Source: a virus. Taken from it: 64,000 nt of DNA. The stretch's first letter is position 1; each line of letters begins with the position of its first letter. Shown piece by piece: positions 3,459-25,437 of the stretch. Made by a program: the position numbers and the translations under genes. The DNA lies in IMG/VR virus record IMGVR_UViG_3300043313_000605, positions 1-64,000 of that record; one strand, given 5' to 3'. Below the pieces are notes generated by a model. It saw only the letters and a list, made by a program, of their open reading frames with translations. It made no database searches and was not told the origin of the DNA.

Positions 3459-4831
3459 TAGTGATCCTTCGCTTGTGCAGGTTGAACTCTTGCTGCGCGA
3501 ATCTTCAGTGTCTCGTCGAAATCTGGCCCCTTCCGGTATGGACGAATCCAGACTACGCGAACCCCCTTGCGTCCGACGCCGACTTTCTGCTGGCGCCAGT
3601 GCCCACTCACCCACACCGGCTTCTCCAGCTTGTGTCCGCGCATGCCGACGATCGTGATGCGCTTCTGAAACTCGTGCGCCTCGATCTCAGCCACGCGCTT
3701 GCCGACGTAGATGTAGCCCAACTTTGACTGCTTGCTGATGCGCCGAATGACTTTCGCTTTCTTCCGGTTCGATTTGATCGCACCGAGATCGCGCCGTGGC
3801 GTCGCTGGCACCGGCTCCAGATCGGGATGCTCGGACTGCATGTACAGGCAGAGCCCCAGCACCACGCGCGGCATAATCTTCGTCAGGAATTCCTGCTCGT
3901 CCCCTTTCGCGTAGTCAGAGCCGTGCGTGAATTTGACGTCGGACATCTTGCCATCCGGCCCGAGCCCCGCCGTGATGTACGCCGTGTTCGCGCCACCAAC
4001 CGTTGACGTGCCTTCCCCGCACACGACGAAGGCAATCTCGCGCTGCTTGCCGGTATCCGGCTGCGTCTCGTCGATCGACACCATGATGCCTTCGGCGTAC
4101 TCCCGATCGATCCCGCCCGTCATCAGGTTCGGCACGCTGAACGCGAACGAGCGCGACGGAATCTTGATGTAGAACGAGTGCTGCCGGAACGCGAGCATGT
4201 CGAGCGGAAACTGCGGTAGCTCGGTATGCCCCAGCATCGTGTACAGCGTCTCATCGAGCACGTACACACGCCGGCCGTCCGCGCGCCAGAGCGCCAGATG
4301 ATACATCGTGTGTAGCAACTCGCTGTGCGCCGCGTGTAGCTGTTCCTCGTTCCGCAGCACGCGCCAGTCGATCAGGGTCTTCAGGTAGCTCTCGCGCCAC
4401 TTCATCACCGATGGCAGCGTGTTGAAGTGCGAGATGTTGTAGATGTTGAGCGCGGCCGGCGTCGCAGGCGCGAGGCTCGGATCGAACGTGCCGAATGCCT
4501 GAAAGTGTGGGTTGCGCTGCTGGGTGTCGAATTCGAGCGTCCCTTTGCGCATCTTCTCGCGCGACTCCTCGACTTCCACGAGCAGCGTCTTCCATGACGG
4601 GAATGGCTCGGCGATGACGTTCTTGACCTTATCCACCTTCAACTCGGTCTTGTACGCCTGCCGGCCGTTGACCATGACCGGCTCCAGCTTGATGTCCTTG
4701 TCATCGATCATAATGTTCGCCATTCCCGGCTCTTTGCTGAAGTACAAATCTTCAGCGATCTCCGGCCACACAGGCGGCAGCGGTGAGCGATGGGAATGAT
4801 CCTTAGTGGTGATGTTGCCAGCGCCAAACAT
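3458..4831 (-). CDS. AcrVA2-like putative anti-CRISPR family protein
   Basis: A 457-residue soluble protein. The last ~45 residues hold GHWRQQ, a glycine-rich GVGRKG turn and WIRPYRKG. This C-terminal signature is one I associate with proteins annotated as the AcrVA2 family, which was defined by a Cas12a inhibitor from Moraxella elements. The central region (SFAFSVPNLMTGGIDREYAEG) also fits a large family of phage hypothetical proteins. Most relatives are untested, so anti-CRISPR activity here is inference. The start at 4831 (TGATG overlap with the YkgJ-like gene) is preferred to the frame open further upstream. An RNA- or translation-related role is an alternative. Confidence 0.45.
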   Translation of the reverse strand: MFGAGNITTKDHSHRSPLPPVWPEIAEDLYFSKEPGMANIMIDDKDIKLEPVMVNGRQAYKTELKVDKVKNVIAEPFPSWKTLLVEVEESREKMRKGTLEFDTQQRNPHFQAFGTFDPSLAPATPAALNIYNISHFNTLPSVMKWRESYLKTLIDWRVLRNEEQLHAAHSELLHTMYHLALWRADGRRVYVLDETLYTMLGHTELPQFPLDMLAFRQHSFYIKIPSRSFAFSVPNLMTGGIDREYAEGIMVSIDETQPDTGKQREIAFVVCGEGTSTVGGANTAYITAGLGPDGKMSDVKFTHGSDYAKGDEQEFLTKIMPRVVLGLCLYMQSEHPDLEPVPATPRRDLGAIKSNRKKAKVIRRISKQSKLGYIYVGKRVAEIEAHEFQKRITIVGMRGHKLEKPVWVSGHWRQQKVGVGRKGVRVVWIRPYRKGPDFDETLKIRAARVQPAQAKDH

Positions 4832-5313
4832 CAGAGACCTCCGAGCAGCATGTCGAACAAACTGAATCCATCCGGATCGTCTGTCTTTGGCGTGCGGCCG
4901 AGCAGTGTAGTGATCTGCGCCTGATGCTCTGGCGCGTCCCACGCGTCAGCGACCTTTTTGTGCGCCGACTCTGAGCGATCGACCGGACCATCTGCGCACC
5001 ACGCTTCGCCACACTCGAATGGCTTGACGGCGTGAATCGAGCAGAGTCCGTCTTTCAGGAAGACGCACCGGCCCTTAGCGACAAACGGGAACTCGGTTCC
5101 CGGCTCCTCGCCCCCGATCCCCGGCGAAAGCACGAAGATCGGATCGTCGCCACGCTCCCACCAATCGACATTCAGGTAGTCGCGAAACAACTCCTCAACA
5201 GAGATGTTGAGGAACGTCGCAATCTTCTCAGCCTCTCCCGGCTTCATCCATCCCGGCTTGCGTTCGCAGCACGCAACGCATTTGGCGCACGTACAGGATT
5301 CGCGAGAACTCAT
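4831..5313 (-). CDS. YkgJ-family cysteine-cluster protein
   Basis: A 160-residue protein. It has CTCAKCVACC at the N-terminus, then GRCVFLKDGLCSIH and KPFECGEAWC in the centre. This is the cysteine layout of the YkgJ/FliB-type zinc- or iron-chelating family. The biochemical function of most members is unknown; some act as protein methylation partners. The ATG follows a GAGAGG ribosome site and a GTTCACTG element. A sigma70-like promoter lies just upstream (5352-5380), so this gene probably starts a transcript that includes the AcrVA2-like gene. Confidence 0.75.
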   Translation of the reverse strand: MSSRESCTCAKCVACCERKPGWMKPGEAEKIATFLNISVEELFRDYLNVDWWERGDDPIFVLSPGIGGEEPGTEFPFVAKGRCVFLKDGLCSIHAVKPFECGEAWCADGPVDRSESAHKKVADAWDAPEHQAQITTLLGRTPKTDDPDGFSLFDMLLGGL

Positions 5314-5834: not shown

Positions 5835-8030
5835 TTATCGGCTCCCTGCGATGCAGCGTGTAACCGCCGCCGCGTTGCCCTCGTACGTATTCCGGCACCG
5901 CGTCTCCAGCGACGCAGGCCGGTAGCCACTCTGCCGTGGCGTTGCGATGGCGCGGCGTACGCCAGCACGCGTTGGATCGCTCACCACCGCGCCCTGAATC
6001 TTCGCATAGACGAGCGACGCGTTCGCGCCGAGCGGACGCCCGTCGTGCGTCGGCGCCGTCCCAGAGTAGTATCCCTGCGCGTTGAAGCCTGCCTCGGCCC
6101 ATTTCCCCGGTGGATACGCCACGTTGTGCGTCCAGTTCGACGTCGCGCTGTCCACGAACAGGCGCCAGTCACTACCACCAGAGCCACCATGCACGCCGTA
6201 CTCGCCGTTGTCGTACGCGTTCGATCGGAAGTCCATGTTGACGATCTTCGGTGGCTGCCCGTCAAAGCTGATCGACGTCTCGACGCCAGACGCGAGGATC
6301 GTCGTGTTGTGCGTGACGGAAACGTGCGAGAGTGGGCCAAGGAACTGCCACAGCCGGCCCTCACCCCTGAAGATGCCCGTGTTCACGTTCTTCGTGATGT
6401 TGTCATATACCGTGATGCGCGACGCGTTCACCACCTGATTCTGGCACGCGGCGCAGAAGTTCCAGCCCGCGCCCGCGTTCTGCACGAGATTGTACCGGAA
6501 CGTGATGTCCGTCGCCTGCGACTGCGGTGCCGTCCCATCCTGATTCACGCTCTTGCACAGAATCGCATAGCCAACCTGCCCATCGGCCCAGATGTTCTCG
6601 ATGACGTTGCCTTCGACGAGCATGCGTCGCGCGTTCTTGCATTCGATCAGGTTCTTGGCCGTCCACACGCCTTTCCACGACGCCGGACGCGTGATGTGGT
6701 TGTGCCGGATCGTGATGTCGCTCGGCACGAGCCCCGGAATCGACGGATCGCCGCCACCGAACATGACAACTTCGTGGCTGGCCTCCATGTAGTTGTTCTC
6801 GATCAGATACGGACCGGGGCCATTGAGCCCGAGCCAGCACTGCGAGTCGCCGTTGTTGTCGTGGCCTTCGGCGCACCAGCTATCGACGACGGCGGTCCGT
6901 GCGGAGTTGATGTAGAAGTTCCGCTTCAGTCGGAGTGTCGGCGTCCCAGAGACGAGCGTATGCGAGAAGACGAAATCTCCCGGCACCTGCGCCATCGTCG
7001 TCTGGTTGATCCCCAGCTTGACGAGCGCGTTGACATCTTGCGTGCCGCCGCCGAGAATCGCGACATCCTCGAAATAGTACCCATGCACGCCACCGCCGTC
7101 CGCGCTCACTGCTGGTGCGTTCCCCGCGTCCACGCTCGCGATCTTAGCCTGCTGCCGCTGCACCGACAGGCTTGGCGTCACCCGAACGCCACGCGCCAAC
7201 AGCGGGAGTCCGTTGTTCGTGCGAACGATCGTGTGATACTGCTCGGTACACGGCTTGGCTGGTAGCTGCACTGGCGCATACTGGAAGTTCGGCACCAGCC
7301 GCAACTCGACACGACACGCAGAGGTATTGAGCGCCGTCTGCAACGCGCCAGCGGACGCCGGCACATTCACGATCGTGTACCCAAGCGGGTACGTGACGTT
7401 GACGGACGCGCGCGGCAACTCGGCCAGCGTCGCCTTACCGGCGACGGGCGGCAGCGACGTGGAGTCGGTAGGCGGCGGCACCGGGATGACCACATCCTTG
7501 ACCGGATAGACTTGCGACCCGACGACCGGATCAGCCGTCGCCGTGACCGTACAGTTCCCGGCGCCCTTCCCAGTCAAGAGTCCTGTGCCCGACACGTCGC
7601 AGAGCGCCGTTGGTGTTGCGCCCCAGCGAATCGGTGATGGCAGGACGACGCCGTTCGCGGCCTTCGGCGTTGCCGTTAGTTGCACACTGGCGCCAACGGT
7701 TACGGTTGCTGTGGCTGGCGCGATCGTGACTGACGCAACGGTTGGCACAACGATTGTGTCTGGCTTCGGTGGCACTGGCCCTGATCGGCGCATCGCCGCG
7801 AGAATCGAATCCGCCGCACGCTGGATGCGAACGTTGTGCGTCGAGTCGATTCGCACATCGGCGCGCTTCACATACCCCGGCCGGCCTCGATCCTTGCGGA
7901 TCGTATCGACGTCCTGATCGATGCGAGCCGTCCCAGCAACGATTTCACCAACATGCTTTTTGATCGCTGTCGTATCCTGCGCCATCAGCGGTGGCGCAAG
8001 GACGAGCAGTAGCGCGAGCAGTGTTCGCAT
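5835..8030 (-). CDS. Secreted Big2 / right-handed beta-helix protein
   Basis: A 731-residue protein. Residues 1-18 are a signal peptide (MRTLLALLLVLAPPLMAQD). A short charged region is followed near 97-170 by a bacterial Ig-like (Big2) domain (TIAPATATVTVGASVQLTAT). Residues from about 215 to 660 have the repeated Asn/Ile/Val ladder of a right-handed parallel beta-helix (ITIRHNHITRP, MLVEGNVIENIW, VSVTHNTTIL), as in pectate-lyase-like or tailspike folds. The signal peptide implies export from the infected or lysogenic host, not virion assembly. It lies in the replication/early operon, not with tail genes. It may act as a host-derived surface or polysaccharide-active protein; an enzyme activity is not demonstrable. 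Confidence 0.8.
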   Translation of the reverse strand: MRTLLALLLVLAPPLMAQDTTAIKKHVGEIVAGTARIDQDVDTIRKDRGRPGYVKRADVRIDSTHNVRIQRAADSILAAMRRSGPVPPKPDTIVVPTVASVTIAPATATVTVGASVQLTATPKAANGVVLPSPIRWGATPTALCDVSGTGLLTGKGAGNCTVTATADPVVGSQVYPVKDVVIPVPPPTDSTSLPPVAGKATLAELPRASVNVTYPLGYTIVNVPASAGALQTALNTSACRVELRLVPNFQYAPVQLPAKPCTEQYHTIVRTNNGLPLLARGVRVTPSLSVQRQQAKIASVDAGNAPAVSADGGGVHGYYFEDVAILGGGTQDVNALVKLGINQTTMAQVPGDFVFSHTLVSGTPTLRLKRNFYINSARTAVVDSWCAEGHDNNGDSQCWLGLNGPGPYLIENNYMEASHEVVMFGGGDPSIPGLVPSDITIRHNHITRPASWKGVWTAKNLIECKNARRMLVEGNVIENIWADGQVGYAILCKSVNQDGTAPQSQATDITFRYNLVQNAGAGWNFCAACQNQVVNASRITVYDNITKNVNTGIFRGEGRLWQFLGPLSHVSVTHNTTILASGVETSISFDGQPPKIVNMDFRSNAYDNGEYGVHGGSGGSDWRLFVDSATSNWTHNVAYPPGKWAEAGFNAQGYYSGTAPTHDGRPLGANASLVYAKIQGAVVSDPTRAGVRRAIATPRQSGYRPASLETRCRNTYEGNAAAVTRCIAGSR

Positions 8031-11940: not shown

Positions 11941-14900
11941 CTACCACTCCGGTTCTTCCGGTTCGCTGTTCGCGTCAGGGCGGGCGCCATTGCCCCTAGA
12001 ATGCCCTGTAAGCCCTCCAAACCCGTCGCCGTCAAGGGAACGCCCTGACCGCTGTGCGATCTCGTCTCGGAGCCACCGGATCGCCGCTGGGGTCTTCACG
12101 TAGTTGTTGTTCGCCCCCTTCCGCAAGAATCCGACGTTCCGGAGCGTCCAGACGGCGGTCCTGAGCGCATTCCGATCTTCGATGCCCAGAATCTCGGTAA
12201 TGTCGCGCAGGCTGAATGCTTCCTGCTCCAGCATCGCCCTGACCGCGCCGTCGTTGCTGCGCATGATGCGCGCAACCTCGTCATCGCCCGTGATCTCGTA
12301 CCGGCGCTTCATGTTGCCGGCGTACTCCGTGAACGCGAGCGACGGCTTCGAGTAGATCGTATCCAAGAACTGTCCCACGAACTCAACATGCTCTGGCTTG
12401 ACGATGACCACGTTCCCGTCGTCATCCGTTGAGAAGAACAGCGCCGCCGTTGCCACGGCGAGCCGTGCGATCTTGATGCGCTGCTCGTTCGGCTCGACCA
12501 GCGGAATCTCGGTCCCGTACCGATACGTGTCACCGTGCCGCATCGCGACGGCGAGCACCGCATCGACGGCATCAGCGGCCCACACCACCTGATCTGCTTT
12601 CCGCGACCACGCCCACATCACGCGCTGGTGGCACAGTTCCGCCGTGAAGATTGCCGGCTCACGATACTCCCGTGTCGCGTTGACGACCGACAGCGGCACG
12701 TCATCGGTGGCTGCGGTGAGCACGAGATCGAATCGCGCGATGTCTTCTGGGGCGCCGATCATTTCCTTGACCGCCAGCACGCCTTGCGAATAGAACGAGA
12801 GCGGCTTGTTCCCTCTGGGGTTCGTAATCCAGATCGATCGTGTGCGGGCGAATGTCTTCTCCGTGTGAATCTTCACGATCTCCGCGATGCCACTCGATCG
12901 CATCGACGACATGCGCCCGATGTGATCCTGCGACAGATTGCCCGCCTCGTCGATCACCAGCAGTCGGCGATCATTGAGCGGTACGCGACCCCATTGCAGG
13001 GCCCAGTTGGTGCCGACTTGATGAAGTCCGCCGACAAGACCAGCAAATGATGTATTCTCTCCTGTCGTAAACTCTCCAGCACCGTAATGCAACTGCATTC
13101 GCTCGACGATGGTGGATTTACCAGTGCGAGAGTCGCCGATGATGAGTGCTTCTGACCATCCACGCTTCAGCGCCTCGCCTTGAAAGGTGAACCCGATGAG
13201 GGAGTGGTAGACGAGATCGACGGCAAGCATGAGATCACGCCGCTGATAGATGCGGGTGACCCCCTCGATGTCGTGATAAATGCCGTTAAGTCGATCCCAC
13301 AGTCCCTGTACGCCTGCACCAGTTGGTTGAAAGGCACGTAGTCTCTCCGTGATTGCGTCCGTGAGTTGGAACGCATCGATGTTCGACTGGGCAGGAACGG
13401 CTTCATAGATCAGGTGGGTGGCAAGTTGCCGGCGTGGCTCTGGCACCGTCACGCCGTTCATCACGTAGCTCCGATTGGCTTGGAGCCCGTGTCCGATGTA
13501 GTACGCTTCGCGCGTGACGTACGTCCCTTCGTTCTCGCTGCCGCGCTCGACTTCCGGAATCATCTGCATGACTTCGATGTTGAGCGCATCGACGACCGTC
13601 TGCTCGACGAACCGGCACTTGGACGGCACGCCGACCTTGCCTTTGATCTGCTTCCCCAGCGTCGCGTCTGGGACGTTGATGAATTGCAGAATCTCATTCG
13701 AGGCAAACTCGATCTTGTGCGTCATCGAGCCGGCCTTCCGCCCCACGGGACACCGCTCGCACATCGGCAGCCCCGGCATCCGGCACGACAGCTTTACCTC
13801 GTGCGGGACCAGATACGGCGCAGTTGTTTTGCCCGATACCATGACATTGACGCGTATCGGCTTGTTGTAGTATTGCTTCTCTGTCGCGCGCGACAGATGG
13901 ACCAGTGTCGGTTCCTGATCCGCGATCGGGATGGCGTCTGATTCGCTGGGCACATACAGCGGTGTGCTCCCCACGATCGAATGAAAGTCGTCGATCGAGT
14001 GTCCGTGCAGAATGAAGTAGTCGCTGATGTCTGGTCCGTGCGTCGGCTTGTACGCCAGTGGCAACTGCACGACCTTAATGCTTGCCGCAGTGCCGTGAAT
14101 CTCTCTGGCGACGTTGGCTGCCCCTTTTCGTCCTGCGTCGTCCACATCATAGCAAATGACGACATCCCGGTCACGGACCAGCGGCGTAAATGCGTCACGC
14201 CAAGTTCCTGCGCCAGCCGTTGTAGTGTACGCGTTGAGCCCCAACTGCCGCGAAACAAGAGTGTCCCATTCTCCCTCACACAGATAGATGGGACCAGTTG
14301 CTTCCCATTGATCCAGCGGATACAAGCGCGCCTCGCCGTAGCCCGTGCGCCACGAGACCATCTTTTCATGCGCTTGCTTCGCATTCGGATCGTAGCGCCG
14401 GATGTTGACGATGGCGCCGTCAGTATCGCGCACTGGAATCGTGAATCGGCGTCCGTCATGCCCCAGCATGTAGCGTTCGATACTGCCATGCGATAAGCCT
14501 CGCTTCGTCGCGAGGTAGTCAACATGGTCTGGCGTTGCGAGTAGCCGCGCATGGAATGCCTCTGGAATCGACGGGTCAATCGTTAGCCGTTCGTCCGATC
14601 CTCCGGAAGCCACCCGTGTTCGTTGGCGCGAAGCTGGCGCTTGTGCTCCGTTGTCGGATGGAGATGCGACCGGATGTCCGTTGGGACTGACTTCACTTCC
14701 CCGATCGGGCGCGGCGGGTTGGTGACCGTTCGATGCGGCCGGATGTTGCTCTCGTTCCAAGTACGCTGCCAAGACGTCTTCCGACGAGCGACGACGCGTA
14801 GGATCACCACCAGCGACAGAATAGCCGCGAGGATGAGAAACGGAACGGGATGTGTCGAGATGTAGTCGATCAGCGATCTCATTGACTGCCTCCGTGAATG

Positions 14901-15147
14901 TGAGTGAACGCTTTTTCCGGTACAGATCGAAGATGTCCCCGCGCGCACCGCACACGGGGTTGTGACAGAAATACAGACCGTCCCTCACATTGACTGAGAA
15001 GCACGGCGTATCGGTGTTGTCGTGAAAAGGGCAGAGCGCCATGCGCTCATTCCCGCGACCACGCATCGACGGCAGCAGTTCCGCGAAGATGGCTGCGTAG
15101 TCGATGCGGTCGCGAATGCGAACGACCAATTCGTCGAGCGACGTCAT
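11941..15147 (-). CDS. Primase-helicase: CHC2 + TOPRIM primase fused to MCM-like AAA+ helicase
   Basis: A 1,068-residue replication protein. Residues ~1-85 form a DnaG-type CHC2 zinc finger (C39, H42, C61, C66). A long disordered linker spans about 88-190. A TOPRIM domain sits near 286-350 (LCEGEWD, then DVDD). A central region with a four-cysteine cluster (CRMPGLPMCERC) may be an OB/zinc domain. The AAA+ module has Walker A GDSRTGKST near 669, Walker B LLVIDEAG near 731 and a sensor-like WITNPRG. A winged helix lies near 970-1030. The AAA+ part looks MCM-like, unlike the RecA-like DnaB/T7 gp4 helicases. It should prime and unwind at the phage fork. A second gene is nested in the linker. Confidence 0.85.
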   Translation of the reverse strand: MTSLDELVVRIRDRIDYAAIFAELLPSMRGRGNERMALCPFHDNTDTPCFSVNVRDGLYFCHNPVCGARGDIFDLYRKKRSLTFTEAVNEIADRLHLDTSRSVSHPRGYSVAGGDPTRRRSSEDVLAAYLEREQHPAASNGHQPAAPDRGSEVSPNGHPVASPSDNGAQAPASRQRTRVASGGSDERLTIDPSIPEAFHARLLATPDHVDYLATKRGLSHGSIERYMLGHDGRRFTIPVRDTDGAIVNIRRYDPNAKQAHEKMVSWRTGYGEARLYPLDQWEATGPIYLCEGEWDTLVSRQLGLNAYTTTAGAGTWRDAFTPLVRDRDVVICYDVDDAGRKGAANVAREIHGTAASIKVVQLPLAYKPTHGPDISDYFILHGHSIDDFHSIVGSTPLYVPSESDAIPIADQEPTLVHLSRATEKQYYNKPIRVNVMVSGKTTAPYLVPHEVKLSCRMPGLPMCERCPVGRKAGSMTHKIEFASNEILQFINVPDATLGKQIKGKVGVPSKCRFVEQTVVDALNIEVMQMIPEVERGSENEGTYVTREAYYIGHGLQANRSYVMNGVTVPEPRRQLATHLIYEAVPAQSNIDAFQLTDAITERLRAFQPTGAGVQGLWDRLNGIYHDIEGVTRIYQRRDLMLAVDLVYHSLIGFTFQGEALKRGWSEALIIGDSRTGKSTIVERMQLHYGAGEFTTGENTSFAGLVGGLHQVGTNWALQWGRVPLNDRRLLVIDEAGNLSQDHIGRMSSMRSSGIAEIVKIHTEKTFARTRSIWITNPRGNKPLSFYSQGVLAVKEMIGAPEDIARFDLVLTAATDDVPLSVVNATREYREPAIFTAELCHQRVMWAWSRKADQVVWAADAVDAVLAVAMRHGDTYRYGTEIPLVEPNEQRIKIARLAVATAALFFSTDDDGNVVIVKPEHVEFVGQFLDTIYSKPSLAFTEYAGNMKRRYEITGDDEVARIMRSNDGAVRAMLEQEAFSLRDITEILGIEDRNALRTAVWTLRNVGFLRKGANNNYVKTPAAIRWLRDEIAQRSGRSLDGDGFGGLTGHSRGNGARPDANSEPEEPEW
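14583..14885 (-). CDS. Putative nested membrane protein gene inside the primase linker
   Basis: A 100-residue frame read in a different phase within the primase-helicase gene, covering primase residues ~88-188, which are low-complexity linker. It starts MRSLIDYISTHPVPF, has a good transmembrane helix (FLILAAILSLVVILRVV) followed by RRK, and then a soluble tail. The start is preceded by TTCACGGAGG and, further up, GTTCACTC, resembling the start element of accepted genes. Expression is inferred; the alternative is a chance open frame over a GC-rich linker. Confidence 0.45.
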   Translation of the reverse strand, partial: SMRSLIDYISTHPVPFLILAAILSLVVILRVVARRKTSWQRTWNESNIRPHRTVTNPPRPIGEVKSVPTDIRSHLHPTTEHKRQLRANEHGWLPEDRTNG

Positions 15148-17195: not shown

Positions 17196-19019
17196 CTACG
17201 CAGCGAGCGGTAAGAGCCCGATGTGACGCCGTAGATCGACCACGGCATCGGCCACGGACTTTTTGTGCTTCAGCGCGTCGAGCACGATTTCATCGCTCGT
17301 CCCAGTCGCCATCAGATCGATGTACGTCACCTGTTGGTGCATCTGTGAGCCGCCGCGATGGTTGCGCCCTTCGGACTGCAAACGATTTTCCAGATCGTAG
17401 TTCTGTGAGTAGTAGATCGCGAGCGGCGCAATCTGCCAATTCATTCCCACGCCACCAGACGCCTGATTCGAGACCATGATCGGCGTCTCTCGGCCGACGA
17501 ACCGGCGCACATGATTCCGCCGCGCCGTGTCCCCTTGCCCACCGTAGACGACCGCTGGCGCATACTCACTGAGCGCGCGAGCGATGCGTTCGACGTCCTG
17601 TCGATACCACGCCCAGATGATGATGCTGCCGTTCGGCACGTTCTCCTCGACCAACTCTTGCAGCGCGTTCAGCTTCGGGTTTGGATCGAACGTGAACGTC
17701 TCGCCCTGATCGTCCGTGACGAATCCGCTCGTGATTTGCGACAGCCGCAAGATCATCGTCAACTGGTTCGCCGCCGTCGCCACCTGATCGGATTCTTCCG
17801 ACAGCGCCGTCACCAGATCGCGCTCTAGCTCCTCGTACGCCCGCTTCTGCTCTCTGGTCAACTCGACCAGTTCTTTCTGCCACACGCGCGGCGGGAGATC
17901 GGGGATGCCCATCTCTTTCGTCACGCGGTAGCCGCGCCGCCGCATGCGCAGCCCGATCTCCGTCTGCGCCTGCTCGTTCTTAACGGACACCTTGAACGTG
18001 TACGGATTCTCGACGAGCCATTCGCGCCGGTACTGCACGAAGTTTGGCCCGAACGTCACGCCGAGATCGACCATGTACCACTGCGACCACACGTCCTGCT
18101 CTCCACGGATGACCGGCGATCCCGTCATGATCATGCGCCAGCGCGCCGCGTTGGCGAGCCGCATGCCGCTCTGCGTCATCTTCGCATCCGGGTTGCGCAA
18201 CTTCTGCGACTCGTCGATCACGATCCCGGTTTTCTTCGATCGCATGAGCAGCAACAACTCGTCTTCCATCAACCGCAGCACGTCGTGATTGATCAGCACG
18301 ACCGGATAGAACCCTTCGGGCACGACACGCTCGCCGCGCGCGATACGCTTGATCATCTCGATCCGCTCGGGCACCGGCCCTCTGAGGAGGATCGGCTTAA
18401 TGTCGCGCGTCCACTCCTCCGCTTCCAGTTCCCACACGCTGTCGAGCGTCGCTTTCTTGCCCGCGACGATCACGACATCGAGATCACCAGAGTGCAGTAG
18501 CTCGCGCATGACTTCGTAGGCCGCGCGCGTCTTGCCCGTGCCGACTTCGCCCAGAATAGCGCAGCCGTCGAGCCCGAGCCCCATCGCAGCCATGATCGCT
18601 TGATGGTTGTACTCGCCACGATACTTCCAGACGCGTACGCCTTCGGCCGTGTACTCGACGTATTCTTCATCGGCTGATGGATCGGCTGGCGTCCCTGCAC
18701 GATTGTCCAACCACGGCAACTCCGGACGCCAGCCGGTCTCCAGCTTCTCGTGTAGCTCGCGAACAAACTCCTCACTCTTGGCTGCCGCCTTCGACCACGC
18801 AATGACTCCCGGCGTGCAGTACGACGCAAACTGTGCTTTCGAGACCCCCAACTCCTGCCGCATCGCTCTGAGCATTTCGAGCGTCAGCGACAACTCCACG
18901 GCACGGCGCTTGGGATTGACCGCCGCGCCGGGGAGCCCAGATAGCACCTGCATGGACGGCCCCGTGACATAGAGCCGTCCATACATTGCATCGATCTTTA
19001 GCTGGATCGTTGGTGGCAC
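17196..19019 (-). CDS. SNF2-family (superfamily II) DNA helicase/translocase
   Basis: A 607-residue protein. Walker A GEVGTGKT lies near 158, motif II IVIDESQKL near 266, motif III MTGSPV near 300, and the C-terminal RecA lobe ends in motif VI QSEGRNHRGG near 548. These define an SNF2-like translocase without accessory nuclease or Zn domains. Phage members are thought to remodel DNA or protein complexes during replication or recombination. Residues 1-115 form an unassigned N-terminal domain. The most upstream start is GTG at 19019, three bases after a run following the previous stop; ATG at residue 12 is an alternative. Confidence 0.88.
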   Translation of the reverse strand: MPPTIQLKIDAMYGRLYVTGPSMQVLSGLPGAAVNPKRRAVELSLTLEMLRAMRQELGVSKAQFASYCTPGVIAWSKAAAKSEEFVRELHEKLETGWRPELPWLDNRAGTPADPSADEEYVEYTAEGVRVWKYRGEYNHQAIMAAMGLGLDGCAILGEVGTGKTRAAYEVMRELLHSGDLDVVIVAGKKATLDSVWELEAEEWTRDIKPILLRGPVPERIEMIKRIARGERVVPEGFYPVVLINHDVLRLMEDELLLLMRSKKTGIVIDESQKLRNPDAKMTQSGMRLANAARWRMIMTGSPVIRGEQDVWSQWYMVDLGVTFGPNFVQYRREWLVENPYTFKVSVKNEQAQTEIGLRMRRRGYRVTKEMGIPDLPPRVWQKELVELTREQKRAYEELERDLVTALSEESDQVATAANQLTMILRLSQITSGFVTDDQGETFTFDPNPKLNALQELVEENVPNGSIIIWAWYRQDVERIARALSEYAPAVVYGGQGDTARRNHVRRFVGRETPIMVSNQASGGVGMNWQIAPLAIYYSQNYDLENRLQSEGRNHRGGSQMHQQVTYIDLMATGTSDEIVLDALKHKKSVADAVVDLRRHIGLLPLAA

Positions 19020-19786: not shown

Positions 19787-20365
19787 TTACCAGACTTCCT
19801 CGCCGTCGTCGAGATCGTCGTCGAGATCGTCGTCGTCGAATCCCTCGCCCACAGGCGACTCCTCGCTGCTCGGCGTTGCTGGCGCCGGACGATCGTCGGT
19901 GTAGTACCGCACTTCCTCGATCCCATCGCCTTCGTTGCCAGCGCGCAGGATCACGTAGTCGCGCAGGTAACGCGGATCGCGATGGACCGGATAGTCCACA
20001 TCCGGCGTCGCGATCACGCCCTCACGCTCGATCACGGTGCTGGCTGGCACGCGCCACAGCCCGTGCTCCCCTTCCTTCGTGACGAGCGCTGGCTGGAAGC
20101 GCGACGGCTCGTAGTCGTGCGGCACCGTCAGGTCCGACTTCGGCACCACCTGCTGCACCGAGACGATGTGTCGCCCCGAGATGACTTCGCGCTCTCGAAT
20201 CAGCACCGCCTCGCCAGACGCCGGATGCACGCGCGAGACGACTTTCCATGCATTGAACGTATCGGTCCCACTGAACACCTTCTGTGCGTACTGCTGCACC
20301 TTCGACAGCTTGTCGAACTCTGAGATGACCTGACGGCCATCGTCCAACGTCGCCATGAGAAACAT
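19787..20365 (-). CDS. Hypothetical protein with acidic C-terminal tail
   Basis: A 192-residue protein. The body is beta-rich (MFLMATLDDGRQVISEF start). The last ~17 residues are almost all Asp/Glu and end EEVW. Such tails occur in SSB-like or DNA-mimic proteins. The start at 20365 has GGAGAGAAT before the ATG. A GTG at 20419 next to GTTCACTGAAGGG is an alternative start that adds 18 residues. Promoter at 20442-20470. Role uncertain. Confidence 0.6.
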   Translation of the reverse strand: MFLMATLDDGRQVISEFDKLSKVQQYAQKVFSGTDTFNAWKVVSRVHPASGEAVLIREREVISGRHIVSVQQVVPKSDLTVPHDYEPSRFQPALVTKEGEHGLWRVPASTVIEREGVIATPDVDYPVHRDPRYLRDYVILRAGNEGDGIEEVRYYTDDRPAPATPSSEESPVGEGFDDDDLDDDLDDGEEVW

Positions 20366-20441
20366 ATTCTCTCCAATGTGGCGGTAAACGCAGTACGCGC
20401 CTTGCGGCCTCCAACGCACTGCCCTTCAGTGAACGCTCTGC

Positions 20442-20470
20442 AATTTACTCGATCAGTCAGTCACGCGCAA
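20442..20470 (-). promoter_or_regulatory. Sigma70-like promoter
   Basis: On the minus strand, TTGCGC and TAAATT have a 17-nt spacer, and GTTCACTG lies 7 nt downstream of the -10 box. It drives the acidic-tail gene and probably the 19718 and helicase genes beyond it. Confidence 0.55.
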
Positions 20471-20695
20471 CGCTCCGAGACCAGCATATTCCAGATATAG
20501 TAGGAACGTTGTCGCGCCGAGTTTCTTTGTTGGAAATGGCAAGCCAGTCATGTCTTGCACGCGCACTACGACGTCTTCCATGTACCGTCGCTTCGGCTCT
20601 GGCCGACTCCAATTGAGCCGCGCCATCTTCCGCACGACCGCCTGAAACGTCTTCCCCTCGAAGATCAGGCCGTCACTTGTGGTGAACATGATCAT
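20453..20695 (-). CDS. Small conserved-type phage protein
   Basis: An 80-residue protein (MIMFTTSDGLIFEGK start). The layout of FxGxTFQAVVRKMARLNW followed by RYMEDVVVRVQ resembles a small protein found in diverse siphoviruses with no assigned function. The start overlaps the amidoligase stop as ATGA. That coupling makes it a candidate accessory protein of the amidoligase cassette. Confidence 0.55.
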   Translation of the reverse strand: MIMFTTSDGLIFEGKTFQAVVRKMARLNWSRPEPKRRYMEDVVVRVQDMTGLPFPTKKLGATTFLLYLEYAGLGALRVTD

Positions 20696-21786
20696 CGCAC
20701 TCTCCCGCGCGCTGCGCGCCGGTTCGCGCGCAGCAACTCTATACGCTGCTGCTCGACAGCGGTGACCGTCTGATCTTGCGTAATCACGAGCGGATTCACC
20801 TGACCGCGCAACCGTTGTGCTGCCGCTGACGGCATCCGCGACGCTGGCGCATGTGCCAGCGTCCGGATGCGCGCCAACGGGTCCAGATCGAGCCGTCTGC
20901 TCTCCAACTCCGGATTCCACGCGATGCGCCGATTCTCGATCCACTGCATCAGATCGCGCGTGACCGGATGCGCGTGCGGCTCACGCAGGCCGAGCACCGC
21001 GCCCACGTACTCCGTGTCGATCGCCCGCATGCGCTGGCGCGGCACGTACGGCTCCAGCGCCACGTTCGTCTTCGCACGCTCAACGAGCGACAGCATGAGC
21101 ATCGCCCATTCGCGCATCTCCTGATAGCTGATCGTGCCGTGGTGCAAGCGAACCTCGATCCGGCCAGAGTGCCACCACGGGCGCAGGTTGAGTGCGATGC
21201 GCGGCCAATTGTCCGGGTTGGCGTGATCGCGCGCGCCCGTGATCATCCGATGGACGTTGGTCCAATGAAAACTCGGCTGCCCATCCAACTCGTACGTACA
21301 GAGCGGCGCGCAGTACGAGCGCGCGCGCCGGTACGGCGGCACGAGCGAAAACCAGAACGGCTCGTAGCGCGCCCAGAGCCACACGAGATTCTGCACCTGC
21401 GCCCACGAGAGATCGCGCGTCTCGATATGCATGTGCAGGCCGCACGAGTTGTTCACCACCGGATCGAGCGCCGCGAAGTGATGGCAGACGCGCTCTAGCT
21501 CCTCGTTCTGTCCTTCCGCATTCAGTTGCAGCGCACGGCTCGCGACTTCCCAGCCGGACGTCGCATCCGTCTTGACGTCCCATGTATTGCCGTCGCTCTT
21601 GTACCACCCAACCTCACGCGGGTTGAGATAGCGCGCTGGCGCCCCGACGTCAGACAGCGCGTTCGCAACCGCCGTTTTGAGCGAGCGCGCTTGCAGCGCC
21701 CTGCGGTTCCGCCGCTGCTTGTTGATCTCGATCTCGATCCCGATGTTCCGGCCCATCCACGGCGCGTACAGACGATTAGTAGGCAT
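20692..21786 (-). CDS. Putative amidoligase (COOH-NH2 ligase, glutamine-synthetase fold)
   Basis: A 364-residue protein matching the Amidoligase_2 family. It has GIEIE at 16-20, a WDVKTDATSGWE segment at 69-80, CGLHMHIE at 115-122 and EVRLHHGT at 211-218. These correspond to the metal/ATP and substrate residues of this glutamine-synthetase-like fold. The family is predicted to make amide (peptide-like) bonds on peptides, proteins or small molecules. The start at 21786 overlaps the amidotransferase gene by 11 bases and has TTCACTGGATATGC before it. The next genes upstream are a class II glutamine amidotransferase and a gamma-glutamylcyclotransferase. The target in infection is unknown. Confidence 0.85.
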   Translation of the reverse strand: MPTNRLYAPWMGRNIGIEIEINKQRRNRRALQARSLKTAVANALSDVGAPARYLNPREVGWYKSDGNTWDVKTDATSGWEVASRALQLNAEGQNEELERVCHHFAALDPVVNNSCGLHMHIETRDLSWAQVQNLVWLWARYEPFWFSLVPPYRRARSYCAPLCTYELDGQPSFHWTNVHRMITGARDHANPDNWPRIALNLRPWWHSGRIEVRLHHGTISYQEMREWAMLMLSLVERAKTNVALEPYVPRQRMRAIDTEYVGAVLGLREPHAHPVTRDLMQWIENRRIAWNPELESRRLDLDPLARIRTLAHAPASRMPSAAAQRLRGQVNPLVITQDQTVTAVEQQRIELLRANRRAARGRVR

Positions 21787-22798
21787 GCATATCCAGTGAA
21801 AGTTGTTCCTCGACCGCACGCAACTTCTGGTCAACGATGATCTTTTGCAACGTCTGGACGCGAGCCTCTAGCTTCTCAATGCGGTCCTGAAGGTCGCGCA
21901 GTGAGATCAACTTCGCCGGCTCATCCGACTCCCTCGTATACGGGCGCATCTGGTCCATCGAATACGACTCACGCGATGACGAGCCAGTCCACCGCTCCGC
22001 ATCTCCGCGCGAGATCGCGAGCGTGCCCCACGACCGATCCGCCTCCAGCGTCTTCTGCGCCGGCTGGCCCTGCGCGAAGCGCGCCATGTTGATGCGCAGC
22101 GCGCGGTCAGCCGGTAGCTCACGAATCGTGTAGTCCTTTGGCTTGAACCCGTGGCGCTTCAACACCCGCACGATGTTGGTGCCTAGTGAATTCCAGACGA
22201 GCATCTTCATGTTCGGAATCCACGCGTACGCGAGCACACCCTGCTGCGAGCGCGCCAGATACAGATGCTCGCCCTTCGTCCATGAGAGTGCGAAGTACCC
22301 CTCAACCTGCTCCAGCGCCGCAAGCGGGTCTTCGTTGACGTCGAGCAGCGCGAACACCGCTTCTGAGTCCACCTTCCACTTCAGCTTCTGCGCAGCCACC
22401 AGCTTGTCCTTCACCAACCGTTGTTCGACTTTCTTCCAGTTGCTGATGATCCCATTGTGGCACCCAACGACGTTGCCGATCTGGAATGGGTGCGCGCAGT
22501 CGTCACGCGACGCGTTGTCGTGCGACGCACGGCGCGTGTGCAACTGGATCGCGACCGTGGACGCGTCGATCTCCTGATCGAGAATCTTCTGCCACGGCTC
22601 GCTCGCGCGCACGACGGACGCCTTGGATGCCGTCTTCCAGACGAACGGGTTGTCGAACGCATCGATGTGCGTGATCGCGATGCCGGTCGCATGGGAGCCA
22701 CGATCCTCGATCGTGCCCACCAGTTGATCCGTCATCTCGCGCGCCAACTCCAGCGAGTTGCCGTCAGCCTGCCTGAGAATACCTGCCAGTCCGCACAT
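21776..22798 (-). CDS. Class II glutamine amidotransferase (Ntn-hydrolase) domain protein
   Basis: A 340-residue protein starting MCGLAG, so Cys2 becomes the N-terminal nucleophile after Met removal. RGSHATG (33-39), HTRRASH (87-93) and GCHNGIISN (112-120) are the glutaminase motifs of the GlmS/PurF-type class II domain. No SIS, PRTase or synthetase domain follows. Instead the C-terminus is a coiled coil (LRDLQDRIEKLEARVQTLQ). It may release ammonia from glutamine or hydrolyse gamma-glutamyl bonds for the adjacent amidoligase. It overlaps the GGCT gene as TAATG. Confidence 0.88.
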   Translation of the reverse strand: MCGLAGILRQADGNSLELAREMTDQLVGTIEDRGSHATGIAITHIDAFDNPFVWKTASKASVVRASEPWQKILDQEIDASTVAIQLHTRRASHDNASRDDCAHPFQIGNVVGCHNGIISNWKKVEQRLVKDKLVAAQKLKWKVDSEAVFALLDVNEDPLAALEQVEGYFALSWTKGEHLYLARSQQGVLAYAWIPNMKMLVWNSLGTNIVRVLKRHGFKPKDYTIRELPADRALRINMARFAQGQPAQKTLEADRSWGTLAISRGDAERWTGSSSRESYSMDQMRPYTRESDEPAKLISLRDLQDRIEKLEARVQTLQKIIVDQKLRAVEEQLSLDMHAY

Positions 22799-23229
22799 TA
22801 TCGTGATGCCCTCGGAAATGCCGCACGCGACCAGAACGTCCCGATCGGTGTCGCCCGCGACTCCTCGATCGTCTCGATCGTCGCCACGTAGATGTACGCA
22901 TCGACGCGCTCGCCGTTCTCCAGATACGCCTCCGTCAACTCACGACGATAGAGCCCGCGCGACACGCCTTCGTACATGTCGAGCAACTCCAGCATGCGCG
23001 TTGGATTATCCAACTCGACGACTTCACCCTGCACGATCTTTCGGTCTTCGGTCAGTGTGTCGTCAGTGAACGCCATCGGATAGGCGCGATGCTCTGGCAG
23101 GTACAGCGTGTAGCCATAGACGACCGCAGGAATGTGCGGACCAACCTCGCCCCACGCCATTAGCGGTGATCTAGGCTCGTCGCCATACGTCTTCAATGTT
23201 CCGTACACGAACAGATGCTTGGTGGACAT
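22798..23229 (-). CDS. Gamma-glutamylcyclotransferase (AIG2/GGCT-like)
   Basis: A 143-residue protein with VYGTLK at 8-13, the nucleotide-loop-like signature of the GGCT fold, and LDMYEG with YRRELTEAYLENG downstream, typical of the family. GGCTs cyclise gamma-glutamyl amines to 5-oxoproline and a free amine. It is the first gene of the amidoligase cassette, with GTTCACTGAGGGGG before the ATG and a promoter at 23255-23283. It may edit or remove gamma-glutamyl linkages made by the amidoligase. Confidence 0.88.
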   Translation of the reverse strand: MSTKHLFVYGTLKTYGDEPRSPLMAWGEVGPHIPAVVYGYTLYLPEHRAYPMAFTDDTLTEDRKIVQGEVVELDNPTRMLELLDMYEGVSRGLYRRELTEAYLENGERVDAYIYVATIETIEESRATPIGTFWSRAAFPRASR

Positions 23230-23254
23230 CGTACCCCCTCAGTGAACGTGATTC

Positions 23255-23283
23255 AATCTAGCGGTTTCTGTATCGATCCACAA
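23255..23283 (-). promoter_or_regulatory. Sigma70-like promoter of the amidoligase cassette
   Basis: On the minus strand, TTGTGG and TAGATT are separated by 17 nt, with GTTCACTG 7 nt after the -10 box and the GGCT ATG 13 nt later. It makes the three-gene cassette a unit that can be transcribed separately from the upstream ParB-like genes. Confidence 0.55.
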
Positions 23284-23626
23284 CTGTCTGCTTGAAGTGT
23301 CTGTCGCCTTTCCCGAGTACCACATCGATCAGACAATCGGGGCACGTCAGCACATGATCCATGACCACGGCTGCACGCGTCGCCCATCGCTCGTCTTCGC
23401 GCATCAATCGGCTCCGTACTAGCTCGCGCACAATCAGATGTTGCAGCCGCTTGCGCGTTGCGTCGTCGAGTGATTTCGCACGGCCGGCCAGCACATGCCG
23501 CAGGTACGGCTCGCTCCGATGCAGCGCCTTCGCCAGCTTCCGGATCGAGCCGCCAGCCACCGCATGCTTCGCATCGTCGATCAGCCGCTTGTCGTCGGTA
23601 TCGAGCGTGTATTGTCTACGCGGCAT
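23258..23626 (-). CDS. HTH domain protein
   Basis: A 122-residue protein. GGSIRKLAKALHRSEPYLRHVLAGR near residue 25 reads as a helix-turn-helix. A CPDC pair lies near the C-terminus. The start at 23626 overlaps the ParB-like gene by 11 bases, suggesting a regulatory or partition partner. Function inferred as DNA-binding. Confidence 0.6.
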   Translation of the reverse strand: MPRRQYTLDTDDKRLIDDAKHAVAGGSIRKLAKALHRSEPYLRHVLAGRAKSLDDATRKRLQHLIVRELVRSRLMREDERWATRAAVVMDHVLTCPDCLIDVVLGKGDRHFKQTVVDRYRNR

Positions 23627-24941
23627 GCGCCACCATATCCCGCACGAGCCCCAGTGCCTCGTGCAATTCATCGGACCGGCGATTCGGCTCGGCTGGCATC
23701 GCACGCACCGCTGCCTCGATCAGCGCGATGGCGTTGGTATACGACCGATCGCTGGCGATGCGTTCAATGATCTCCTCCCGAGTGAGCCCGTTCGGCACTT
23801 GGATGCGTGCAGCCGGCTGCGGCGCCACACTCTGCTGCCCTTCAGCGAATCCTTCTCGACGCGCTCGCTCGATGGCTTGCTGCACATGCGACCGTCGTTC
23901 TGTCGCACTCTCCACCGGCTGCCGGCGCCGTGTCGCTTCCGTCACGAGCCGGTTGTGTTCTTCCAGTGTGATGTACGTCGCGTTGTTGTAGCGCATCATC
24001 TGCGTACCAGCAACCGGCTCGACACCAGTCACGTTTGATACGGCAGCCCGCGCCGTCGCGATGCGATTCTCCAGCCGCTGCACAATGTCCTGATGATGCT
24101 GGAAGCTGATGAATCGCTGACCGTCTGCTTCAATCAGATGATCGTTGATGCGCGTGATCGCTGGCGCCTGCAATGGCGTTGACAGCCATGTTCTTTCTGG
24201 CTCGTGATCGAACGACAGCCCCGTTATCTGAAACGTATTCGGCGCCGGCCGTGTTAGCTCGACGACCGTATCCATCGCCGACTCTGGGTCGTGCTGGCCC
24301 GCCGCTCGCTCCACCATCGCTGGCGTGATCTCATCCTCGTGAGACGAACCCCAGATGCGACGCAGCGCACGCTGTGACGACGCTGGCATGCGTGCGACCT
24401 GATTCGCGAGCCGTACACTCAGTTCGCCGCGCACGAGCGCGTTCCGCATCACTGGCGTCAGGTTCGCCAGCGCGCGACGGGAACGCACCTGCGAGACGGA
24501 CATGCCGAGATGCCGTGCGATCTCCGTCTCTTGGACGCCAGCCGCGACGAGTATCTGGATCGCGCGCAGATCGACGATCGGATTCTCGCCCCGCTGGTAG
24601 TTCTCCGTCAGCATCATCGCCGCCACAACCGTTGTTGGCGTCTCACGCGGCAAGACCGTCGCTGGAATGAACAGGAGCCCAGCCCGAAACGCTGCCGCCA
24701 CGCGGCGCCGGCCGGCGATGATCTTGTACGTGTACGCATCCGGTACCGGATGCTCCAGCAGCGTCACCGGCTGCAACACACCGAAGCGACGGATGCTCTG
24801 CACGAAATCATCCGGCAGATCGCTTGGGTCGAATCCGTCCGGATCGATTATCGCAAGAGAGACTTGCCGTAGCGTCACGACTGGCCGCGCAGTGCCGTAC
24901 AGTGTCCGTTCAGTTTGTGATGGTGCGCGTCTCGCTGGCAT
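23616..24941 (-). CDS. ParB-like nuclease/CTPase-fold DNA-binding protein
   Basis: A 441-residue protein. The ParB box GRRRVAAAFRAG (77-88) and ENYQRGENP (113-121) are followed by an HTH (QETEIARHLGMSVSQVRSR, 137-156). The C-terminal ~280 residues are unassigned. There is no parA neighbour, so classic plasmid-like partition is not indicated. Phage ParB-like proteins can act as transcription regulators or nucleases. It contains a CAACGGTTG site itself. Whether it recognises the dispersed CAAC(N)GTTG palindromes is an open and testable idea. Confidence 0.82.
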   Translation of the reverse strand: MPARRAPSQTERTLYGTARPVVTLRQVSLAIIDPDGFDPSDLPDDFVQSIRRFGVLQPVTLLEHPVPDAYTYKIIAGRRRVAAAFRAGLLFIPATVLPRETPTTVVAAMMLTENYQRGENPIVDLRAIQILVAAGVQETEIARHLGMSVSQVRSRRALANLTPVMRNALVRGELSVRLANQVARMPASSQRALRRIWGSSHEDEITPAMVERAAGQHDPESAMDTVVELTRPAPNTFQITGLSFDHEPERTWLSTPLQAPAITRINDHLIEADGQRFISFQHHQDIVQRLENRIATARAAVSNVTGVEPVAGTQMMRYNNATYITLEEHNRLVTEATRRRQPVESATERRSHVQQAIERARREGFAEGQQSVAPQPAARIQVPNGLTREEIIERIASDRSYTNAIALIEAAVRAMPAEPNRRSDELHEALGLVRDMVAHAA

Positions 24942-24944
24942 CGG

Positions 24945-25181
24945 CTATCCGCGTGTGAGTTTCCAGAGTTTGTCCATCTCGGCCGCGTTGTTGCTGACGG
25001 CCATCGAGAGTATCGTGATCCGATCCTTCACGTCGTAGTTGTTGAACTGGTCATCCATCGGCTGCACACTCACCATCGCCGTTAGAAACGAGATTTCGTC
25101 ATGGATGCGACCGATCTGCGCACGCACCGCGTCCAGCCGCTGTGCGATCTCACGGTTGGTCGCTGCACGATTAAAGCCCAT
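24945..25181 (-). CDS. Hypothetical coiled-coil protein
   Basis: A 78-residue, helical, charged protein (MGFNRAATNREIAQRLDAVRAQI start). The start at 25181 overlaps the upstream stop. It directly precedes the ParB-like gene. Function unknown. Confidence 0.6.
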   Translation of the reverse strand: MGFNRAATNREIAQRLDAVRAQIGRIHDEISFLTAMVSVQPMDDQFNNYDVKDRITILSMAVSNNAAEMDKLWKLTRG

Positions 25182-25437
25182 TCGCCTTCTCCGTGAGCGC
25201 GTAGACGTGACCAATCCCCGGCCCTTTGCCGGCCTGACGAATCACCCCACGCAGATAGAGCCCATGCACGGTCTGCATGTTCACGGTCTTTGACTCACCG
25301 CCGCGACCAGCACCGCCTTTCTGAATCCATGCGCCGCCGTCAATTCCGCCGTTAGTCGCGAGTTGCCACCCGTTCTTCATCAGATCGATCACGTCGCGTT
25401 GCGTCTTACTCAGTGGACGGTTCTGCGTTTTCGTCAT
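25171..25437 (-). CDS. Hypothetical DNA-binding-like protein
   Basis: An 88-residue protein starting MTKTQNRPLSKTQRDVIDLM. The layout (helical N-terminus, glycine-rich wing, then TVHGLYLRGVIRQ and VYALTEKA) reads like a small winged helix. The start follows CACGGAGGAGACGCA. Role unknown. Confidence 0.6.
   Translation of the reverse strand: MTKTQNRPLSKTQRDVIDLMKNGWQLATNGGIDGGAWIQKGGAGRGGESKTVNMQTVHGLYLRGVIRQAGKGPGIGHVYALTEKANGL

Follow-up and report, generated by a model that had tools for sequence, protein, structure and literature searches.

Phage genes for amidoligases have been found together with genes for a stand-alone class II glutamine amidotransferase (GAT-II) and a gamma-glutamyl cyclotransferase (GGCT), and for RIO1-, phiEco32-, LUZ24- and PA11-like phages the trio has been described in print as a predicted 'peptidoglycan modification cassette' (PMC5498523). 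That account refers the cassette to Iyer et al. and to Hardies et al. 2013, and a sequence-only reading of the locus described here was right to name the Aravind group as precedent for such sets. The RIO1-like version is a seven-gene cassette, and the cassette is also stated for phiEco32, LUZ24, PaP3 and PA11 (PMC5498523; PMC10580990). Enzymes of this kind have in addition been reported as auxiliary metabolic genes (AMGs) in Phage-ZRK32 (PMC10945688). The same reading had called such sets essentially undescribed in phages, which does not hold for the set itself, published in PMC5498523 and PMC10945688, but does for the substrate, as the published accounts found report none for an amidoligase cassette. 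Related chemistry is known from ergothioneine synthesis, where EgtA supplies gamma-glutamylcysteine and EgtC releases glutamate, an example of a stand-alone GAT-II that removes gamma-glutamyl groups (PMC4621440).

Here we describe a locus of this kind in a 64-kb IMG/VR phage record (the window, meaning the whole stretch of 64,000 nucleotides that was analysed). Its trio of enzymes is of a known kind in phages; the unexpected part is a family of small proteins, termed SMALL, which recurs beside the amidoligase.

Organisation of the locus

All four cassette genes are on the minus strand and are therefore transcribed towards lower coordinates, in the order GGCT, GAT-II, amidoligase and 80-aa gene; the sequence-only reading had listed the enzymes in the reverse order. 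The range that it gave, 20692-23283, covers the trio and omits the small gene. The features of the locus and its surroundings are as follows.

22798..23229, minus strand: GGCT (GGACT/AIG2-like), 143 aa, first gene; PF06094, 1.2e-16
21776..22798, minus strand: stand-alone GAT-II (N-terminal-nucleophile), 340 aa; GATase_6, 2.7e-12
20692..21786, minus strand: Amidoligase_2, glutamine synthetase (GS)-fold carboxylate-amine ligase, 364 aa; PF12224, 1.5e-11; phrog_2443, 5.8e-19
20453..20695, minus strand: 80-aa amidoligase partner (SMALL family), ATGA-coupled to the amidoligase; family profile, 3.6e-21, the profile including this protein itself
11941-15147: primase
17196-19019: SNF2 helicase
23616-24941: ParB-like gene

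Neighbouring genes overlap throughout, as had been noted from the sequence: by TAATG between GGCT and GAT-II, by 11 nt between GAT-II and the amidoligase, and by ATGA between the amidoligase and the 80-aa ORF (20695-20453), which confirms the coupling proposed for this partner. The ORF upstream of GGCT stops at 23258, 28 nt ahead of the GGCT ATG, and the cassette therefore looks like a section of a longer early-region operon. A sigma70-like promoter said to precede the set was not recovered: 20200-25300 contains 0 sites, where shuffles would be expected to give 1.5. The cassette sits amid replication genes (SNF2 helicase, ParB-like, primase), and the record also carries siphovirus-like tail genes. 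None of the four cassette proteins matched a PADLOC model at E 0.01.

The three enzymes

Matches of the three enzymes all exceed the Pfam cut-offs, and the decoy control for the model searches gave 0 matches among 24,822 reversed ORFs. Together with conserved catalytic residues, the Pfam and PHROGs matches bear out the earlier assignments as a predicted COOH-NH2 ligase, a GAT-II and a GGCT.

For the amidoligase the probable start codon is the ATG at 21786, which gives 364 aa, an upstream TTG being disfavoured; the protein matches PF12224 with 45 bits against a gathering cut-off of 22. Residues E21, E23, D77, H121, E214 and R216 (367-aa numbering) are invariant in 42 amidoligase sequences and H123 is kept in at least 90% of them, so that the ExE, HxH and ExR metal/ATP-pocket residues of the GS fold are all present; the pocket on which the sequence-only reading had staked its system interpretation is thus intact. 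The AlphaFold2 (AF2) model has a pLDDT of 78 overall, above 90 in the core and moderate outside it, and a PDB fold search with it returned YbdK (1r8g) at the top, followed by PafA/Dop (PafA-Pup complexes included) and GS. A PDB sequence search with the ligase profile gave chance matches only and hence no sequence-detectable solved relative, and an IMG/VR scan with the window amidoligase as a single protein gave no relative. One limited pattern scan of IMG/VR yielded 313 confirmed amidoligase relatives; a mixed ten-phage alignment was too divergent for making patterns. Judged by its residues and modelled fold, the protein appears able to form amide bonds in an ATP-dependent manner, and we infer from the accompanying GGCT and the likeness to YbdK that it may be specific for gamma-glutamyl groups.

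The GGCT matches PF06094 with 61.7 bits (cut-off 22.8) and its residues Y9, G10, L12, P51 and E87 are invariant across seven phages, leaving the YGTL motif and the catalytic Glu87 intact. Its profile matches YtfP (1xhs) and AIG2-like domain-containing protein 1 (3jub/3juc). In the GAT-II, C2, R89, H114-N115-G116 and D144-S145 are invariant across eight phages and provide the N-terminal Cys nucleophile, the Arg, the Asn-Gly oxyanion hole and the Asp of this class; the profile matches the GlmS glutaminase (4amv/1xff) at 1e-20. The protein has a C-terminal coiled-coil-like tail and lacks a synthase domain. By analogy, donation of NH3 and gamma-glutamyl hydrolysis of the EgtC type are equally possible roles for it.

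The SMALL family

The 80-aa protein has no match in Pfam, PHROGs or PADLOC, and tblastn with it, as with the window GGCT, gave no match against phage records, so that profile methods were needed. An IMG/VR scan with a single SMALL member gave five close relatives only. The family now comprises 40 non-redundant members; it has no Pfam entry, and a PHROG, of unknown function, covers only 1 of 22 members. AF2 predicts a compact beta-beta-alpha-alpha-alpha-beta fold for the 80-aa protein (pLDDT 91). A PDB fold search with this model returned nothing, and hence no solved relative, while a search of BFVD returned four uncharacterised phage proteins (TM 0.71-0.81) that carry no function. The 80-aa protein ends in -RVTD, and the last residue is Glu in 6 of the 40 members; across the family, Lys, Glu and Asp have no invariant position, whereas conserved residues include Arg, Phe and Leu. 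In one lineage SMALL is fused to DUF5049. The sequence-only reading had treated the 80-residue gene as an afterthought, yet its unnamed family is a recurrent amidoligase neighbour.

Gene neighbourhoods in other phages

SMALL lies within 1.5 kb of the amidoligase in 22 of 69 amidoligase clusters, about a third of lineages, and wherever tabulated it is downstream and on the same strand. Nearly all SMALL matches (74/75) fall within that distance, against 30% of all ORFs. A reciprocal whole-genome search with SMALL led to 13 new genomic places, 10 of which adjoin an amidoligase; three SMALL genes have no amidoligase within ~8 kb. Distances in the amidoligase and SMALL are correlated (r=0.50, p=0.0005), and the evidence on this pair includes purifying selection, with dN/dS ~0.10 in one cluster.

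The trio, which the sequence-only reading had proposed to look for elsewhere, is linked in unrelated phages. It or a larger set is annotated in Wheelbite, Ottawa (the GGCT there located by profile, not by annotation), Rembedalsseter (LUZ24-like), Vibrio 1.208.B and Manatee Spring, and was found by profile in Pantoea TacPo2. All four genes occur together in at least three different gene orders. Amidoligase and GGCT are both present in 39 of 65 genome loci, and in most clostridial loci the two genes are adjacent. Partnership of the enzymes is not obligate: many loci hold just two of the four genes, and most GAT-containing loci have no GGCT or SMALL; as loci were gathered by searching for amidoligase or GAT, the count of GAT linkage is inflated. 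A two-gene form of amidoligase and SMALL is found in Bacteroides prophages and in Porphyromonas phages, in the latter between adaptor and neck genes. The hosts of phages with the set are very different and include Arthrobacter, Bacteroides, Clostridia and Geobacillus.

Proposed function and alternatives

From sequence and models, we consider it about an even chance (roughly 0.5) that the four genes encode a cytosolic module which makes and reverses gamma-glutamyl-type amide bonds and in which the small protein aids the ligase. The ligase would activate a glutamyl (or comparable) carboxylate with ATP, as an acyl phosphate, and join it to an amine, with the small protein serving as its dedicated subunit or as a factor that recognises the substrate. 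The GGCT, as a gamma-glutamylamine cyclotransferase, would take off gamma-glutamyl groups as 5-oxoproline, and the GAT-II would either provide NH3 from glutamine or hydrolyse gamma-glutamyl groups in the manner of EgtC. Overall this would give a make-and-remove cycle, or a scheme in which the glutamyl group serves as a temporary handle. As target, the likeliest class would be a small peptide or an amine that the cytosol offers early in infection; cell-wall precursor peptides are the leading published guess, and an effect on physiology, for instance superinfection exclusion, is putative. More tentatively, and with the odds somewhat against it, SMALL may be the second component of an unrecognised GS-fold conjugation system, either as the ligase substrate or as an essential target-presenting subunit; amidoligase and SMALL would then form the core, to which GGCT and GAT-II would contribute optional processing.

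Naming the target turns the gamma-glutamyl module into its special case, a peptidoglycan cassette that would amidate or extend lipid-II stem peptides and so block superinfection, with GGCT and GAT-II degrading or editing. We hold this possible but doubtful. It is the function stated for the RIO1-like cassette and its counterparts (PMC5498523; PMC10580990), and the enzymes are predicted to be cytosolic, like lipid-II precursor ligases. However, it was published as a prediction, without an assay in the accounts found, neither the ATP-grasp nor the PF14395 ligase known from the seven-gene cassette was found by Pfam among the flanking window ORFs, and the set spans phages of the disparate hosts named above. 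An improbable alternative is auxiliary metabolism of a nitrogen or glutathione type, in which gamma-glutamyl compounds and glutamine nitrogen would be recycled for phage replication. Such a role has been proposed for Phage-ZRK32 (PMC10945688), and glutamate pools are the site of action of both GGCT and GAT-II; against it, a ligase and a GGCT that share one soluble product would cycle futilely unless an intermediate step intervened, and the dedicated small protein beside the ligase is left unexplained.

Tagging in the manner of PafA and Pup, the 80-aa protein being a substrate or tag conjugated by the amidoligase, would suit the nearness of the ligase fold to PafA and Dop and the Pup-sized gene immediately downstream, sometimes the amidoligase's sole companion. 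A Pup-like tag is nevertheless disfavoured by the variable C-termini of SMALL, which follow no -GGE/-GGQ rule; with no invariant Lys, Glu or Asp, a compact fold where Pup is disordered, and the DUF5049 fusion, we judge it decidedly improbable. Amidoligases, GAT-II and GGCT are also discussed for base-modification systems, and the ligase could in principle decorate phage DNA bases via amide bonds. This we think very improbable indeed, as genes for dUMP hydroxymethylase, base kinase, TET/JBP, deazaguanine and aGPT-Pplase were not found by Pfam among the tested window ORFs.

Widespread in phages, amidoligase cassettes routinely carry the labels 'host metabolism' or 'cell-wall modification', given with no established substrate. 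SMALL, being small, soluble and confidently folded, gives the missing handle for finding what the ligase modifies, and together with the amidoligase it offers a minimal two-protein system for biochemistry. If the ligase does have a dedicated acceptor or adaptor, the pair would open a new branch among GS-fold conjugation enzymes, next to YbdK and PafA.

Comparison with known systems

With the RIO1, phiEco32, LUZ24 and PA11 cassettes the locus shares an Amidoligase_2, a stand-alone GAT-II and a GGCT placed together in the early region. Unlike the RIO1/phiEco32 cassette, it has no PF14395-type COOH-NH2 ligase or ATP-grasp beside the set (Pfam, flanking window ORFs), so that it would work like this type but is not the full type. 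RIO1-type cassettes belong to podoviruses whereas this phage has siphovirus-like tail genes, and in the podovirus loci retrieved (L004-L006, L008-L010) the SMALL profile had no match, unlike here.

The likeness to EgtA/EgtC, in which a gamma-glutamyl ligase and a GAT-II likewise act on the same gamma-glutamyl group, is an analogy of chemistry and not membership: EgtB, EgtD and EgtE were not found here, and the GGCT and small protein are extra. PafA/Dop-Pup resembles the locus in pairing a GS-related ligase fold with a short partner protein, but the partner here is folded and has no conserved C-terminal Glu/Gln. YbdK, a gamma-glutamyl:Cys carboxylate-amine ligase, is the best PDB fold match to the amidoligase (1r8g, E 8e-7), but shares 14% identity and a low global TM-score (0.39, partly from flexible tails).

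All four genes are found together in the Arthrobacter phages Ottawa and Kharcho and in Laroyevirus (Wheelbite, Laroye, Salgado; cluster AL). There the order differs (GGCT-amidoligase-GAT-small), the enzymes are only 24-29% identical to those of the window, the amidoligase has an N-terminal extension and the small protein is annotated as hypothetical only; in Ottawa, as here, a ParB-like gene lies nearby.

The cassette and its phage

The IMG/VR record totals 64,128 bases, of which the window is nearly all, and its genes are those of a tailed phage (terminase, portal, major tail, tape-measure, SNF2 helicase, RecE-like exonuclease and primase), with a terminase at most about 50% identical to those of deposited phages. 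The cassette consists of three genes, each scoring above its Pfam cut-off, and a fourth encoding a small protein:

23229-22798, minus: gamma-glutamyl cyclotransferase (GGCT)
22798-21776, minus: stand-alone class II glutaminase (GAT-II)
21786-20692, minus: amidoligase
20695-20453, minus: 80-aa protein, last in cassette order

Adjacent genes overlap by TAATG (GGCT/GAT-II), 11 nt (GAT-II/amidoligase) and ATGA (amidoligase/80-aa protein). The sequence-only reading had given the genes in coordinate order, which is not the order of transcription, namely GGCT, GAT-II, amidoligase and 80-aa protein. It had also assigned the set its own sigma70-like promoter, a claim that does not hold, as no such site occurs in 20200-25300, where shuffled sequences average 1.5. 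Only 28 nt separate the end of the upstream ORF from GGCT, and the cassette therefore probably belongs to a longer transcript.

Elsewhere in the window, a 1068-aa primase (11941-15147, minus) carries an MCM-like P-loop domain (PF00493, 1e-6) after its CHC2 zinc ribbon and Toprim, and is by its predicted domains an unusual primase-MCM-type fusion. Near the RecE-like exonuclease, a protein of 731 aa (5835-8030, minus) contains a Big_2 Ig-like domain and is possibly a surface-binding protein encoded outside the main structural block. A 160-aa protein (4831-5313, minus) has a CxxCxxCC zinc/iron-chelating domain (PF03692).

Integrity of the enzymes

Alignment with distant phages shows that GAT-II retains Cys2, Arg89, His114-Asn115-Gly116 and Asp144-Ser145, that GGCT retains Tyr9-Gly10, Leu12 and Glu87, and that the amidoligase retains ExE, HxH and ExR. 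Only six residues are invariant in 42 amidoligases: E21, E23, D77, H121, E214 and R216 (367-aa numbering; from the ATG, subtract 3). We liken these to the residues that hold metal and ATP in the glutamine synthetase fold. An AlphaFold2 model built from the 42-sequence alignment (pLDDT 78, core >90) finds its best solved matches in YbdK, PafA/Dop and glutamine synthetases; with residues conserved and the fold matching enzymes of this type, the predicted metal/ATP pocket, whose lack would have refuted the sequence-only reading, appears intact.

A family of small partner proteins

The 80-aa protein has no match in Pfam, PHROGs or PADLOC, and only one of 22 relatives has a PHROG of its own, which is without function. 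It aligns with proteins of 87 aa in Arthrobacter phage Ottawa and 72 aa in Geobacillus phage GR1, and iteration yielded a family of 40 members (clustered at 60% identity). Their consensus comprises Asp-Gly near the start, Tyr-Met-x-x-Val-Ala-x-Arg, a Phe and a Leu, with the Arg in 34 and the Phe in 32 of the 40; dN/dS is about 0.10 in one cluster. The AlphaFold2 model of the 80-aa protein (pLDDT 91, pTM 0.80) is beta-beta-alpha-alpha-alpha-beta. A fold search matched it to none of the solved structures, and a viral model library holds four uncharacterised phage proteins with the same fold (TM 0.71-0.81, 15-22% identity).

In the collected loci, 74/75 small-protein matches lie within 1.5 kb of an amidoligase, as against 30% of all ORFs; reversed ORFs, searched as a control, gave no matches. 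The small protein is on the same strand as the amidoligase and downstream of it in 22/22 clusters (chance of all 22 lying within 1.5 kb, p about 3e-12), and distances within the two families correlate (r=0.50, p=0.0005).

A reciprocal search with the small-protein profile alone, against about 1190 whole genomes from three phyla and leaving out of the count those that supplied profile seeds, gave 13 places, in ten of which an amidoligase is directly adjacent. The other three (L225, L226 and L227), in bacterial genomes, have no amidoligase within about 8 kb, and are candidates for orphans, remnants or a different use. Phages of Porphyromonas gingivalis (L205, L206 and L207) carry amidoligase and small protein without GAT or GGCT, located between head/adaptor and neck/tape-measure genes and not in the replication region.

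Linkage and gene order

GGCT, GAT-II and amidoligase are also grouped in phages infecting Arthrobacter, Pseudomonas (LUZ24-like), Vibrio and Pantoea, and likewise in a spring-water metagenome. We assembled 183 amidoligase loci from IMG/VR, genome contigs and annotated phage records, searched all their ORFs with profiles, and grouped them into 69 clusters at 50% identity. Within 1.5 kb of the amidoligase, GAT-II is found in 34/69 clusters (a figure inflated because some loci were found through GAT-II), GGCT in 19/69 and the small protein in 22/69; nine clusters have none of these and only 3/69 have all. The linkage proposed from the sequence is thus frequent, but it is modular and not that of a fixed set, and the sequence-only reading, which unlinked genes would have refuted, survives this check with that qualification.

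In L228-L231, four copies on the chromosomes of three bacteria that share a phylum with a Desulfovibrionaceae MAG, the order within one operon is amidoligase-small-GAT-II-GGCT; the operon adjoins a large tail-like DUF4815 gene, and its small domain forms a fusion with DUF5049. Arthrobacter phages have GGCT-amidoligase-GAT-II-small, and the window GGCT-GAT-II-amidoligase-small. This recurrence of the same genes in three orders argues for a putative functional unit and not a shared ancestral block. In Arthrobacter Laroyevirus records (e.g. NC_055034.1) the small-protein gene lies at the very start (bases 2-220) and GAT at the far end (59806 of 59879). Should the record be circularly permuted, which is the state given for phage Kovu, all four genes lie side by side.

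Predicted mechanism

Beyond the conservation of the active sites, we infer the following scheme. The ligase would use ATP to form a gamma-glutamyl-type amide, as its fold and the repeated occurrence of GGCT beside it suggest, and GGCT would remove this group as 5-oxoproline. The sequence of GAT-II is compatible with either of two roles: a source of ammonia, the part played by the glutaminase of GlmS, or hydrolysis of a gamma-glutamyl group, the reaction of EgtC in the ergothioneine pathway (PMC4621440). For the small protein, the reading we favour is that of a subunit or recognition factor dedicated to the ligase. That it is instead a Pup-like tag is less likely, as it is folded and the C-terminus of its family is not conserved, with Glu in 6/40. 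The position of the cassette among replication genes, together with the lack of a synthase, suggests that the substrate may be early and cytosolic.

Comparison with known systems

A larger set in RIO1, phiEco32 and LUZ24 phages has been named a peptidoglycan modification cassette, with a block to superinfection hypothesised (PMC5498523, PMC10580990), and the cassette has also been treated as nitrogen metabolism (PMC10945688); the published work surveyed shows no substrate. In the paper on Arthrobacter cluster AL, an AIG2-like protein and an amidoligase are listed without function (PMC5513430). The small family is not mentioned in the literature searched, in which the work of Iyer (2009) and Hardies (2013) is represented by citing papers. 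The trio in the window is a distant new example of this known predicted system, to which the main addition is the small partner family, a testable and previously unnamed component.
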